A model generated the notes under the pieces. The model was not told the DNA's origin. It ran no database searches and was given only the letters and a program-made list of their open reading frames with translations. Position numbers and translations under genes: made by a program. From assembly GCF_014651915.1 (NCBI RefSeq), contig NZ_BMXU01000001.1:1116001-1180000 (forward strand): a DNA stretch of 64,000 nucleotides. Direction: 5' to 3'. The DNA is from Parvularcula lutaonensis. GTDB taxonomy: Bacteria; Pseudomonadota; Alphaproteobacteria; Caulobacterales; Parvularculaceae. This document shows positions 31,176 through 59,520 of the stretch, piece by piece; position 1 is the first letter of the stretch; every line of letters begins with the position of its first letter.

Positions 31176-31445
31176 ATGTCGATTACGGCTGACCGCAAGG
31201 AAGAGCTGCTGAAGGAATACGCGACCAAGGAAGGCGACACCGGTTCGCCCGAAGTGCAGGTCGCCCTCCTCACCGAGCGGATCAACAACCTCACCGAGCA
31301 CTTCAAAGAGCACAAGAAGGACAACCACTCGCGTCGTGGCCTTCTGAAAATGGTTTCGCACCGCCGCAACCTGCTCGACTACGTGAAGCGCAAGGACGAG
31401 GAGCGCTATCAAAACCTCATCAACCGTCTTGGGCTACGTCGCTAA
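31176..31445 (+). CDS. rpsO: 30S ribosomal protein S15
   Basis: Primary 16S rRNA-binding protein of the small subunit. ATG 31176 ([12 protein letters not shown]) gives exactly 89 residues, the universal length; the longer frame from 31146 adds ten unconserved residues. Conserved segments are [38 protein letters not shown] and [30 protein letters not shown] lies about nine bases before the start. The usual partner pnp is not immediately downstream but about 1.85 kb away. Confidence 0.98.
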
Positions 31446-31478
31446 CAGGGCGGGCGTTGCGACAAGGGATAGCTGCCG

Positions 31479-32699
31479 ATGGATTCGACGGATCAGATCG
31501 GCAGCGGTCCCAAGGTCGCTTACCTCCTGAACACCTATCCCGTCCCCTCGGGCACGTTCATCCGGCGAGAGATTGCCGCGCTTGAGGGGCTGGGGCTGCC
31601 AGTCACCCGCTACGCCGTCAGGCCCTGGGATGACCAGCTGGTCGACCCGCAGGACCAGGCCGAGCGTGACAAGACCCACTACATCCTGAACCAAGGCGCT
31701 GTCGCGATCCTGAAGGCGAGCCTCGGCACGGCCCTGCGCGCGCCGGTTCGCTTCCTGAAAGCCCTGGGCGCGACAGGCACCCTGGCGAAGGGCCGCGGCC
31801 TGCGCGCCTTCGCCTACCTTGCCGAGGCCTGCTACCTCCGGGAGCGGACGAAAACTGACGGCATCACGCATGTTCACGCGCATTTCGGCACCAATGCGGC
31901 CGCCGTCGCGATGCTATGCCACCTCCTCGGCGGCCCACGCTACAGCTTTACCGTCCACGGGCCGGACGAGCTGCACGAGGCCCCGCTCAACGCCTTCGAG
32001 ATCAAGATCGCGCATGCCGATTTCGTGGCGGCGATCACGGACTTCGCCCGCGCCGAACTCCTGCGCATTGGCGGCTATCAGTATGCCGACAAGATCGATG
32101 TGATCCCCTGCGGCCTCGATCTCGGCGATTTCGGCGCCCAGGCCACGGCGCCGGAGAAGCCACATTTCGTCTGCGTCGGAAGGCTATGCCCTCAGAAGGC
32201 GCAGCGCCTGATCCCCGAGGCTGTCGCCCCGATCGCTAAAGACCACCCTGACCTGCATATCGAGCTGATCGGCGACGGAGACGACCGGCCCCTGATCGAA
32301 GCGGCCATCAAGCGGCATGGTCTCGAGCGCAACATCACGCTCACAGGCTGGGCGGACAACAAGAAGGTCCGTGAGCGGATTCTTGCCAGCCGCGCCCTCC
32401 TCCTGCCGAGCTTCGCCGAGGGGCTGCCCATTGTCATCATGGAAGCCTTCGCTCTCCGCCGTCCTGTGATCTCGACCTATATCGCCGGCATACCGGAGCT
32501 TCTCGATAGCCAGTGCGGCTGGATCGTGCCCGCAGGCTCGGTGACGAAGCTGCGCCGAGCGATTGAAGAGGCCATTATCGCAAGCCCGAAATCCATCGAA
32601 GCGATGGGCCGGGAGGGGCGGGCCCGAATCGAGGCCCGTCACCAGGTCCAGCAGGCGGCTCGTCGCCTGGCCGAGCACTTTCAGCGACCGGTTTCCTGA
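31479..32699 (+). CDS. glycosyltransferase family 4-type protein
   Basis: GT-B fold glycosyltransferase of 406 residues. The N-terminal domain (KVAYLLNTYPVPSGTFIRREIAALEGLG) is typical of WcaL/exopolysaccharide-type enzymes. The centre has HVHAHFGTNAAAVAM and YSFTVHGPDEL, and the C-terminal nucleotide-sugar domain has FVCVGRLCPQKAQRLIPEA and the E-x7-E region (PSFAEGLPIVIMEAFALRRPVI). It likely adds a sugar to a cell-surface polysaccharide or lipid; donor and acceptor are unknown. It starts 33 bases after rpsO, separating it from pnp. No other polysaccharide gene is nearby. Confidence 0.88.
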   Translation: MDSTDQIGSGPKVAYLLNTYPVPSGTFIRREIAALEGLGLPVTRYAVRPWDDQLVDPQDQAERDKTHYILNQGAVAILKASLGTALRAPVRFLKALGATGTLAKGRGLRAFAYLAEACYLRERTKTDGITHVHAHFGTNAAAVAMLCHLLGGPRYSFTVHGPDELHEAPLNAFEIKIAHADFVAAITDFARAELLRIGGYQYADKIDVIPCGLDLGDFGAQATAPEKPHFVCVGRLCPQKAQRLIPEAVAPIAKDHPDLHIELIGDGDDRPLIEAAIKRHGLERNITLTGWADNKKVRERILASRALLLPSFAEGLPIVIMEAFALRRPVISTYIAGIPELLDSQCGWIVPAGSVTKLRRAIEEAIIASPKSIEAMGREGRARIEARHQVQQAARRLAEHFQRPVS

Positions 32700-33299
32700 A
32701 GCCCGTATCGGATGAGCAATCACTCACCGGACGACGACGGATAGCCCACAGCCCAAGATCCCGGCCGTCCTGTAGCAGGCAGAGGATACAGGACGGCCGG
32801 GCCATGCACGTGGCGGGACAAGGCAGAACCCGCCACACACCGCTGGCCGTCGCCTGCGGTCGCAAGGTCGGAACCCGGAGGGTCCCAGAGCAAGATGGTG
32901 CAGAATCCGTGCAGGGCCAGCCGGGCCCTGCACCTCCCAAATGGAGGCCACACCATCTTCCCGATATGCAGATCCCAGGGAAGTTCTGACGGTTTACACC
33001 GAAGCCAGCCCGAATTTCTCTCGGCGGAACTGCATGGACGCGCTCCTGTCACCGGAACAGGTCTATTGCAACCGCTGGTTTTCAGAAAGCCTCTCTACCG
33101 CCCTAGATTGTGCACAACTCGGGTTATCTAGGCTTCGTGCTCCACACCACGGTCGCCCCGCTGAGAAAGATCACGGCGCGCCGGACGCTGGCGTTGCGTT
33201 CCGTAGCGCTTCCCGCCATGAGCGTCCCACGCGCATTCCAAGCGACGGCAAAGACTGCCCTGGCAATCCGGTCAGGGTCGAAAGACAGAAACGAAAAGT
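32700..33299. other. 600-base gap upstream of pnp
   Basis: No convincing protein-coding frame: the short frames present lack ribosome binding sites and recognisable sequence. The left part (32760-32959) is unusually rich in perfect hairpins and is listed separately. The right part contains a seven-base-pair hairpin (33102-33108 with 33126-33132, CCTAGAT/ATCTAGG) within the probable pnp leader. The remainder shows nothing I can identify. Confidence 0.6.
32760..32959 (+). ncRNA. candidate structured RNA or leader element before pnp
   Basis: Within 200 bases there are several long perfect stems. Arms 32760-32774 and 32787-32801 give a 15-base-pair hairpin. Arms 32810-32817 and 32829-32836 give eight pairs. 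A domain closed by 32892-32900 with 32951-32959 (AAGATGGTG/CACCATCTT, nine pairs) encloses a ten-pair hairpin (32909-32918 with 32924-32933) and a four-pair CTCC/GGAG hairpin. A small hairpin with a GGA loop lies at 32870-32885. No T tract follows the long hairpin. I tested it by eye against tmRNA, RNase P RNA, SRP RNA and the cobalamin, TPP and FMN riboswitch cores without a match. The strand is uncertain because stems are symmetric; plus is chosen for synteny with pnp. Confidence 0.45.
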
Positions 33300-35420
33300 A
33301 TGTTCAACATCACCAGGAAAACCATGACGTGGGCCGGCCGTGAGCTGACCCTCGAATCGGGCCGCATTGCCCGCCAGGCTGACGGCGCCGTGCTCGTCAC
33401 CTATGGCGAAACCACCGTCCTCGCGACGGTCGTCGGCCGACGCGAGGCAAAACCCGGTCAGGATTTCTTCCCGCTGACGGTCAACTACCAGGAAAAAGGC
33501 TACGCAGCCGGTCGCATTCCGGGCGGCTTCTTCAAGCGCGAAGGCCGTCCCACCGAGAAAGAGACGCTGACCTCGCGCCTCATCGACCGTCCGATCCGCC
33601 CGCTCTTCGCTCCGGGCTTCAAGAACGAAGTCCAAGTCGTCCTCACCGTGATGAGCCACGACCTCGAGAACGACCCTGATATCGTCGCGATGATCGGCGC
33701 CTCGGCTGCGCTTACCATCTCCGGCATCCCGTTCATGGGTCCGATCGGTGCGGCACGCATCGGCTACAAGGACGGCGAGTACCTCGTGAACCCGACCATC
33801 GCGGATCTCGAAGGCTCCGAGCTCGATCTCGTCATGGCCGGTACCCAGGACGCCGTGATGATGGTGGAATCGGAGGCCAAGGAGCTGTCCGAGGACGTCA
33901 TGCTGGGCGCCGTGATGGAAGGCCACAAGGCTTCGCGTGAAGTCATCGACCTCATCATCAACTTCGCCGAAGAATGCGCCAAGGAGCCGTGGGATTACAC
34001 CCCGCCGGACTACTCCGACATCATGCCGCGCGTCCGCGCCGAGGCCGAAGCGGGCCTGCGCGAGGCCTATGCCCTGACCGACAAGCAAGAGCGCTACACC
34101 AAGGTTGGTGAGGTCAAGGCCGCTGCGAAGGAGAAACTCGCCGGTGAAGACGCCGAGGATCCGATCGACGAAGTGGTCCTCGGCAGCCTCCTCAAGGAGC
34201 TCGAATCCGAGATCGTTCGTGGCCAGATCATCGAGACCGGCAGCCGTATCGATGGCCGGACCACGACGGAAATCCGCCCGATCGTCGGCGAAGTCGGCAT
34301 CCTGCCGCGCACGCACGGTTCGGCCCTCTTCACCCGCGGCGAAACCCAGTCGATCGTCGTGGCGACCCTTGGAACCGCAGACGACGAGCAGTTCATCGAC
34401 GCCCTCGAAGGGACGTACAAAGAGAACTTCCTACTGCACTACAACTTCCCGCCCTACTCGGTCGGTGAGACGGGTCGCATGGGCTCGCCGGGCCGCCGCG
34501 AAATCGGTCACGGCAAGCTGGCATGGCGCGCTGTTCGCGCTGTCCTTCCGAGCCAGGACGAGTTCCCTTACGTGATCCGGCTCGTTTCGGAGATCACCGA
34601 GTCCAACGGTTCGTCGTCGATGGCGACGGTCTGCGGCTCGTCGCTCGCGATGATGGACGCAGGCGTGCCGATCAAGCGCGCCGTGGCCGGTATCGCCATG
34701 GGCCTGATCCTCGAAGGCGACAAGCATGCCGTTCTCTCGGACATCCTCGGCGACGAAGACCATCTCGGCGACATGGACTTCAAGGTTGCCGGCACGTCCG
34801 AAGGCGTCACCTCGCTGCAGATGGACATCAAGGTCGCGGGCATCACCGAAGACATCATGAAGACCGCTCTTGGCCAGGCCAAGGACGGACGGATGCACAT
34901 CCTCGGCGAGATGAACAAGGCGCTGGGCGAGAGCCGCTCTGACCTCGGCGAATTCGCGCCGCGCATCGAAACGATGACCATCCCCAAAGAGAAGATCCGT
35001 GAAGTGATCGGTTCTGGCGGCAAGGTCATTCGTGAGATTGTCGAGACCACCGGTGCCAAGGTGAACATCGACGACGACGGCGTCATCAAGATCGCCTCCT
35101 CCGACAAGTCGCAAATCGACGCCGCTGTCAAATGGATCAAGTCGATCACCGACGAGCCGGAAGTCGGGGAAATCTACCAGGGCAAGGTCGTCAAGACGAT
35201 GGACTTCGGTGCATTCGTCAACTTCTTCGGTGCCCGCGACGGCCTCGTCCATATCTCCCAGCTTGCGGACAAGCGCGTCGAGAAGACCACCGATGTCGTC
35301 AAGGAAGGCGACACGGTTTGGGTCAAGCTCCTCGGCTTCGACGACCGCGGCAAGACGAAGCTCTCGATGAAGGTTGTCGATCAGGAAACCGGCAAGGAAA
35401 TCGAGAAGAAGGACGACTAA
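33300..35420 (+). CDS. pnp: polyribonucleotide nucleotidyltransferase (PNPase)
   Basis: Phosphorolytic 3'-5' exoribonuclease of the RNA degradosome, 706 residues. Two RNase PH domains are clear: the first around [57 protein letters not shown], the second with [24 protein letters not shown] and [10 protein letters not shown]. The catalytic region has [19 protein letters not shown]. Then come a KH domain ([25 protein letters not shown]) and an S1 domain ([33 protein letters not shown]). Length is normal. In enterobacteria PNPase represses its own mRNA through a leader hairpin; the long structured upstream region makes a comparable control possible here. Confidence 0.98.
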
Positions 35421-52294: not shown

Positions 52295-52318
52295 CCGTCG
52301 GGCGGCGGACGAAACGAG

Positions 52319-52346
52319 AAAAGCCCCGGAACCTCCGGGGCTTTTT
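52319..52346 (+). terminator. intrinsic terminator of the S41 operon
   Basis: AAGCCCCGGA (52321-52330) pairs with TCCGGGGCTT (52334-52343) around a three-base loop, with flanking A and T tracts. Confidence 0.9.
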
Positions 52347-52363
52347 CCATGGGCCGACGCAAG

Positions 52364-52389
52364 AAAAAAGCCGGCGAGGACGCCGGCCT
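52364..52389 (-). terminator. intrinsic terminator of secE-nusG
   Basis: GCCGGCG (52370-52376) pairs with CGCCGGC (52381-52387); read on the minus strand the stem is followed by six T (plus-strand A run 52364-52369). It lies about 27 bases after the nusG stop. Confidence 0.88.
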
Positions 52390-52415
52390 TCTCGATAAGG
52401 AACGCTGAAGACCGG

Positions 52416-52955
52416 TCAGCCCTCCTTGTCGACCTGGTGGTATTCCAGCTCCACCGGCGTGGCCCGGCCAAAGATCGAGACCGAGACCTTGAGGCGCGCA
52501 TTCTCTTGGTCGACATCCTCGACGACGCCCGAGAAGGACGCGAAGGGACCGTCGATGACCTTCACCGTCTCGCCGACATCATAGATGACCGACGGCATGA
52601 CCGGAGCCTGCTCGCTCTCTTCCATCGTGCCGAGGATACGATCGACCTCCTTCTGGCTGATCGGGAGGGGTTTCTTGCCCGAACCAAGGAAGCCCGTGAC
52701 CTTGTTGGTCTCGTTCACGACGTGGAAGGTCTGGTCGTTGAGGACCATCTTCACGAGGACATAGCCGGGGAAATAGCGCCGCTCCGTGTTGACCTTGCGG
52801 CCACGGCGCACCTCGACGACCTCTTCGGTCGGGACGAGGACTTCCTCGATCAGATCGCCAAGGCCCTTCTCTTCGGCAGAAGCCTTGATCGCTTCGGCGA
52901 CCTTCTTCTCGAAGTTCGAATAAGCGTGGACGATGTACCATTTCGCTTCGGACAT
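52416..52955 (-). CDS. nusG: transcription termination/antitermination protein NusG
   Basis: RNA-polymerase-associated elongation factor, 179 residues. The NGN domain (KWYIVHAYSNFEKKVAEAIKASAEEKGL..., RYFPGYVLVKMVLNDQTFHVVNETNKVTGFLGSGKKPLPIS) and C-terminal KOW domain (VGETVKVIDGPFASFSGVVEDVDQENARLKVSVSIFGRATPVELEYHQVDK) are complete. It forms an operon with secE ten bases upstream. Ribosomal protein genes that often follow (rplK) are not here; a terminator ends the operon. Confidence 0.97.
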   Translation of the reverse strand: MSEAKWYIVHAYSNFEKKVAEAIKASAEEKGLGDLIEEVLVPTEEVVEVRRGRKVNTERRYFPGYVLVKMVLNDQTFHVVNETNKVTGFLGSGKKPLPISQKEVDRILGTMEESEQAPVMPSVIYDVGETVKVIDGPFASFSGVVEDVDQENARLKVSVSIFGRATPVELEYHQVDKEG

Positions 52956-59296: not shown

Positions 59297-59323
59297 TTTT
59301 CTCCGGAGATGTCGGGTCTGTTT

Positions 59324-59520
59324 TGTCTCACGGCGCGTGGCGCCTCCGACGGGGCGGACGACGTCCGAGCGGCTTTGCCGCTACTCCCCTCTCCCCGGGG
59401 GAGAGGGGCTGGGGGTAATGGGGCGACCCTCAGAGCAACATACCCAGCGCCCAAGAGCGCGACCGCGCTCCGGCCGGTCAGGCCGCCCCGTCGGAGGCGC
59501 CACCCACTGGGCGTGAGACA
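59324..59520. repeat. 197-base inverted-repeat element directly after tRNA-Pro
   Basis: Outer arms TGTCTCACG (59324-59332) and CGTGAGACA (59512-59520) are perfect inverted copies. Inner arms 59337-59357 and 59483-59503 are a 21-base perfect inverted repeat. The interior has a CCCCTCTCCCC/GGGGAGAGGGG palindrome around 59386-59409 and an AGCGGC/GCCGCT hairpin. No coding frame is credible. It resembles a small non-autonomous or palindromic mobile repeat; no target duplication is evident. Confidence 0.6.

Follow-up and report, generated by a model that had tools for sequence, protein, structure and literature searches.

A hairpin cluster and a probable pnp-leader hairpin upstream of pnp in Parvularcula lutaonensis

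Gene order and conservation upstream of pnp

The window, by which we mean the whole 64 kb stretch of Parvularcula lutaonensis DNA that was analyzed, carries pnp on the plus strand (33300-35420), and Pfam assigns RNase PH, KH and S1 domains to its product, polynucleotide phosphorylase (PNPase). The gene is preceded by a gap (32700-33299) in which none of the three frames scanned contains a Pfam domain. On its other side the gap is bordered by a glycosyltransferase gene of the group 1/4 type (31479-32699, plus strand; PF13692/PF00534), which lies between rpsO and pnp; rpsO is located immediately 5' of the glycosyltransferase gene and is not a direct neighbor of the gap. The N-terminal part of pnp was present in all 61 genomes searched, including the window's own, and is 89-95% identical between the window and nine same-genus genomes.

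The interval upstream of pnp (31445-33300 in the window; also in L004, L007-L011 and L014) shows turnover of genes within a single genus. A glycosyltransferase gene is found within 1500 nt 5' of pnp in three of ten same-genus loci, namely in the window and, among the other nine, in L007 and L008. Many of the genomes compared have rpsO within the same distance, and in L005 and L006 rpsO is followed by 590 and 778 nt, respectively, before pnp. Labeled by eye, L004 has a transposase-like frame and L008 an OsmC-like gene 5' of pnp, and other opposite-strand frames are present there in L009-L011 and L014. In the latter four loci these open frames come within 175-274 nt of the pnp ATG, and in L008 an opposite-strand gene starts 193 nt from it. 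As the gene adjoining pnp is located on the opposite strand and close to it in five of the ten same-genus loci, pnp must have its own nearby promoter.

A block with the sequence GTTGC-N19-CATGAG (33193-33222, plus strand), which is conserved in the genus, is the putative pnp promoter, and transcription would start near 33229. GTTGC does not vary among the ten same-genus sequences and is followed at equal spacing by CA-x-x-AG or CATGGG; the expression used for this putative promoter matched eight of the ten loci, and the other two, L004 and L010, were assessed in the alignment. The block does not match the sigma-70 consensus, and such an arrangement could represent a promoter or an operator. 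A genome-wide promoter search was carried out with a spacer of N18 and has therefore no bearing on this block with its N19 spacer. Conservation of the gap at the genus level begins about 115 nt 5' of the pnp ATG. Extended similarity was detected by nhmmer in only two of the nine same-genus gaps: in L005 it starts at 33185, and in L004 the alignment extends back to 33040 and is weak upstream of about 33185.

The hairpin cluster at 32760-32959

Within the gap, the earlier note had pointed to a dense group of stems at 32760-32959, and this cluster, here called element A, is confirmed: the claimed stems of 15, 8 and 10 pairs, the nine-pair closing stem and the small hairpin are all present. Its three parts are given here without assignment to a strand. 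Hairpin 1 (32760-32801) consists of 15 perfect pairs around a 12-nt loop (arms 32760-32774 and 32787-32801) with no T-run behind it, and hairpin 2 (32810-32836) of eight perfect pairs around an 11-nt loop (arms 32810-32817 and 32829-32836). Domain 3 (32892-32959), defined from arms and folds, is closed by nine pairs taken from the fold (32892-32900/32951-32959), which enclose a hairpin of ten perfect pairs at 32909-32933 (arms 32909-32918 and 32924-32933) and a small hairpin of four pairs seen in the centroid fold (32934-32937/32943-32946).

Of all perfect hairpins with a loop of 3-20 in the 64 kb window, that of 15 pairs is the longest, and the gap contains two of the window's ten perfect hairpins with at least ten pairs (loop 3-20). 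Ten simulated windows had 0-3 perfect hairpins of at least ten pairs each and none of 15 pairs. Nevertheless, the claim that A is far more structured than the other gaps was overstated, as in a ranking by folding excess (both strands scanned) the 200-nt windows covering A take places 5, 16, 24 and 25 of 1276, which makes A strong, but not alone. Compared with shuffled sequences, the windows 59301-59500, 52301-52500 and 4801-5100 fold about as strongly as A or more so, and the sequence at 52319-52345 resembles a terminator hairpin.

The assertion that A does not match known structured RNAs agrees with our searches, in which A had no match to any Rfam family. At the Rfam gathering score the whole 64 kb window yielded two tRNAs only and no known riboswitch, ribozyme or other housekeeping RNA. 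A 301-nt query over A found no match in a sequence search of 60 relatives, all of which have pnp, and at E-values up to 1 only chance-like matches of about 15-40 nt appeared elsewhere (62 family genomes, own included, some incomplete). Sequence searches thus revealed no recognizable counterpart of A (61 other family genomes, 9 same-genus), and with nothing alignable in the 61 family genomes and the nine same-genus gaps, none of its stems shows a compensatory change in relatives. The earlier note had proposed A as a candidate new structured RNA or autoregulatory leader and had named a lack of conservation of the stems in relatives as a refutation; since no counterpart of the stems was found in these genomes, this interpretation is not supported for these coordinates. 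A decayed gene was rejected as well, as there was no Pfam match in three frames of the gap or in one frame antisense to the glycosyltransferase gene, and frames present at this place in relatives gave only short or weak tblastn pieces.

Folding of A exceeds that of shuffled sequences on both strands (MFE z = -4.56 on the plus and -5.35 on the minus strand; 200 dinucleotide shuffles each), and the closing stem extends to 12 pairs, including G-U, when the minus strand is folded. The larger excess on this strand and the 12-pair closing stem, which forms only there, would suit a stand-alone small RNA specific to this species, most likely transcribed from the minus strand with the extra G-U closing pairs. 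We consider such an RNA quite improbable, because neither a sigma-70-like promoter nor a terminator-like site (a GC-rich hairpin with a T-run behind it) occurs between 32600 and 33400 on either strand, and because A is without a counterpart in the 61 other family genomes and without an Rfam match. With no terminator-like site in the same region, A was also rejected as an intrinsic terminator.

A derivation of A from a mobile or palindromic element that inserted into a plastic spacer and has since decayed is likewise improbable. The turnover upstream of pnp would provide the setting for such an insertion, with the glycosyltransferase gene in three of ten loci, the transposase-like frame in L004, the OsmC-like gene in L008 and the other opposite-strand frames at the same place in L009-L011 and L014. 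However, A is present in a single copy in its own genome, has no match in phage and plasmid records or in the family genomes, and one exact A pattern was absent from viral contigs. Moreover, the inserted frames of the relatives left only short or weak pieces in the gap when compared by tblastn, the best of them (E-values 6e-4 and 0.001) close to the end that faces pnp. The single copy speaks against a dispersed palindromic repeat, so that the scattered repeat mentioned as an alternative in the earlier note finds no support, and the lack of matches in phage and plasmid records led us to reject a derivative of such elements.

With respect to pnp, A is located 341-540 nt upstream of the ATG, and as conservation in the genus begins only at about 115 nt, A probably lies outside the pnp mRNA. 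It is found upstream of the block where the pnp promoter probably sits, which argues against the proposal that A is the pnp leader. Taken together, we favor as the rather probable reading that A is a lineage-specific spacer outside the pnp unit and that the real pnp-leader element is a short hairpin directly before the gene (element B). A would then most likely belong to the 3' end region of an rpsO-glycosyltransferase transcript of presumed extent, and its GC-rich hairpins may protect the end of this RNA; alternatively, A may be a plain unselected spacer. A might nonetheless be functional in this one species.

A short hairpin with a conserved loop before pnp

Element B was recognized by folding and comparison. 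It is a hairpin of eight pairs on the plus strand (33257-33278) with the apical loop AAUCCG at 33265-33270, and in the window it stops 21 nt short of the pnp ATG. Behind it follows a purine-rich stretch (33280-33299, plus strand), which was read from the sequence, has similar stretches in relatives and presumably binds the ribosome. The ten same-genus sequences have CAATCCGG or CAATTCGG directly 5' of pnp, embedded in arms that are specific to each genome. In folds of relatives with this loop the stem ranges from 4 pairs (L012) to 19 pairs (L095, L123) and mostly has 7-12. The pnp leader as a whole folds no better than shuffled sequences (z +0.42), and the support for B therefore comes from comparison and not from energy. 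A search against Rfam yielded no match for B in the window or in ten relatives' loci.

For counting, B was defined by a loop AUNNG, or AUNNG preceded by A or G, with the inner two pairs formed and at least five of six pairs (one slip allowed), at a distance of 14-45 nt from the loop end to the ATG. In a first set of 139 upstream regions, merged by identity to 131 (the too-short upstreams L016, L020 and L021 were dropped, and G030 came back via L144), this rule matched 77 of 131 distinct pnp upstreams, compared with a mean of 4.6 and a maximum of 10 in 100 shuffles; the AUNNG rule had been read off this first set before it was counted on the same set. Windows shifted by 60, 120, 200 and 300 nt gave 11/130, 7/130, 5/102 and 3/102 matches, and the leaders of rpsO 4/122. 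A chance origin of B was rejected on the basis of the shuffles, the shifted windows and the rpsO leaders.

A class-wide sample contained approximately one genome per family and comprised 108 of 136 non-own genomes with a pnp match; G038, which is already part of the first set, was left out, as were a further 27 that were more divergent or truncated, and in four of the 108 the aligned pnp start is not ATG. Here the rule was matched in 32/108 (shuffles: mean 5.2, maximum 11; shifted windows: 11 and 12). After removal of two upstreams identical and five similar to the first set, 30 of the remaining 101 matched (shuffles: mean 4.7, maximum 11; shifted windows: 9 and 12), which is a smaller excess than in the first set. 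The strict loop AATNCG showed the same tendency, with 54/131 against 2-6 in shifted windows in the first set and 10/101 against 4 and 5 in the class-wide sample. These class-wide counts indicate that B is widespread but patchy, and that its loop is more variable outside the relatives of the window.

Counted by locus, the rule was matched in 32/35 cases in the family of the window and, in other families of the order, in 5/6 (f2), 5/6 (f3), 0/6 (f4) and 2/6 (f5). All loci of Azospirillum (6/6), Brevundimonas (3/3) and Henriciella (3/3) and one of two in Glycocaulis had the hairpin by this definition, and those of Hyphomonas (0/2), Maricaulis (0/3) and Microvirga (0/3) did not. The same-genus locus L014 misses the rule, but its fold has this loop too, on a bulged stem. 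At Henriciella/Hyphomonas-type loci (L026, L032, L042, L054, L111, L120 and L121) a B-like hairpin in the last 60 nt before pnp forms part of a larger, terminator-like hairpin that has a TTTT run and lies shortly after the end of rpsO, and this arrangement could act as an attenuator. Seven loci without B by rule, mostly from Hyphomicrobiales (L043, L060, L063, L088, L098, L100 and L102), have in common a block like TCTTGCTCATGGC about 30-60 nt 5' of pnp.

Evidence for a conserved stem was obtained from 49 distinct AATNCG sites chosen by their loop only, in which the inner four pairs are formed in 163 of 196 cases, compared with 110 on average and at most 130 when the 3' arms were dealt anew 1000 times. 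By this count, the stem of B is kept in relatives through compensatory change. Over 39 hexaloop rows the covariation score was 0.541 against a shuffled mean of 0.210, in rows that had been preselected for pairing. GATNCG and CATNSG loops, read as six-base loops, showed pairing no higher than re-dealing, as expected if these classes close one pair further in. The arms vary together around a constant loop, which points to an RNA and not to a DNA-binding site; a DNA-bound palindrome was rejected, as here the arms vary and the center is constant. The wider idea of the earlier note, an analogue of the enterobacterial leader control of pnp, is thus not supported at 32760-32959 but gains support for B at 33257-33278, whose loop is conserved and whose stem covaries across many alphaproteobacteria.

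In the 39 non-redundant hexaloop hits of the rule the loop reads A-A-U-N-C/G-G. Its first base is A in 39/39, although the rule allowed A or G, and its fifth base, which was free in the rule, is C in 35/39. These two positions also bear on the question whether B is non-regulatory and only protects the 5' region of the pnp mRNA or keeps the ribosome-binding site open. Such a role would be in line with the position of B just 5' of the ribosome-binding stretch, with which it does not pair in the centroid fold, but it would not need a specific loop, and we therefore see it as rather doubtful.

The hexaloop type was also converted into a covariance model (R1), built on 39 of 61 non-redundant hits, the window's own included; R1 matches at these training loci by construction, because they are among its rows. 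In the window's genome the pnp leader was the best of six matches with E-values up to 1 (29.0 bits, E 0.0025). Matches as high were found at non-pnp places in G061 (29.3 bits) and G021 (29.2 bits), and R1 by itself is not large enough to identify B away from the context of pnp. A second conserved B site elsewhere was rejected after inspection of 30 best-match R1 loci, of which five were examined closely; the non-pnp ones are mostly unlike each other. The related genomes of L158 and L170 have a common non-pnp match, in register and within long reading frames, and our guess is that it results from coding (Arg-Asn-Pro-Ala). Location in a long reading frame is a weak criterion, as long open frames cross pnp leaders too.

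A possible role of the hairpin in the control of pnp

B probably serves as a control site for pnp at the RNA level. It would start about 30 nt past the predicted transcription start and ends just before the presumed ribosome-binding stretch. An RNA-binding protein reading the loop would lower translation of pnp or the stability of its mRNA; bound to B, such a protein could get in the way of the 30S subunit or influence decay. A stem of eight pairs is short for an RNase III substrate, and B, with eight pairs in the window, does not have a stem long enough for RNase III as expected for the E. coli type. In E. coli, pnp is reported to be autocontrolled via a leader stem-loop that is cut by RNase III and then digested by PNPase (PMC7866481). 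In both cases a structured RNA is located just 5' of the pnp start, but B consists of eight pairs and a conserved loop, in contrast to the RNase III-cut stem-loop described for E. coli. In Rhodobacter sphaeroides, according to the same source, no effect of an RNase III mutant on pnp mRNA was seen, and at 42 degrees an RNase E mutant had over twice the amount of this transcript (PMC7866481). These data, as reported, fit a mechanism other than that of E. coli and are silent on the presence of B in R. sphaeroides.

Leader RNAs of genes for RNA-decay enzymes are known from other groups as well. The rne-II motif (RF01756), which as implied by its name belongs to a gene other than pnp, had no match in the gap. 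It is described from Pseudomonadales (PMC2864571), and the leader hairpin of E. coli rne is reported to be bound by RNase E itself (PMC3997798); B resembles both in that the gene behind the probable leader RNA encodes an enzyme of RNA decay. The Actino-pnp motif (RF01688) is listed for Actinomycetales (PMC2864571) and, judged by its name, shares with B that a conserved, presumably cis-regulatory RNA is tied to pnp. RF01688 gave no match with E-values up to 5 in 32690-33320, nor up to 1 in ten relatives' loci. In the open-licence literature, no title or beginning of an abstract among the matches listed describes a conserved alphaproteobacterial pnp-leader hairpin. As pnp leader RNAs are known already, B is best called an addition to them without an Rfam family.

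B could also be read by another factor, for example S15 or RNase E, which would link pnp to rpsO or to the degradosome. For S15, this is suggested by the presence of rpsO within 1500 nt 5' of pnp in many genomes and by the alphaproteobacterial S15 leader, which is reported to precede rpsO and to bind S15 with a conserved hairpin loop (PMC4137082). This leader is similar to B in its covarying stem, its highly conserved loop and its occurrence in the same class, but is located before rpsO and not before pnp (PMC4137082). For RNase E, the more than twofold increase of R. sphaeroides pnp mRNA in the RNase E mutant at 42 degrees (PMC7866481) would be compatible with such a link. However, the rule for B finds only 4/122 rpsO leaders, so the site before rpsO looks different, and we regard a reader of this kind as unlikely.

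The first candidate for the reader of B is PNPase itself, which might bind via its KH and S1 domains, because E. coli pnp is reported to be leader-controlled and a pnp-linked RNA motif is known in actinobacteria. Binding of PNPase to B would allow autocontrol without the RNase III-cut stem of E. coli. We tentatively propose, as one possibility, that PNPase controls its own synthesis independently of RNase III, with B as the operator that is read through its small apical AUNNG loop; such an operator would be widely inherited in alphaproteobacteria and unrecorded as an RNA family. The case may also serve as a warning that function in a gap does not have to reside in its most conspicuous hairpins, and B represents a concrete and easily mutated candidate for the control of PNPase in alphaproteobacteria.
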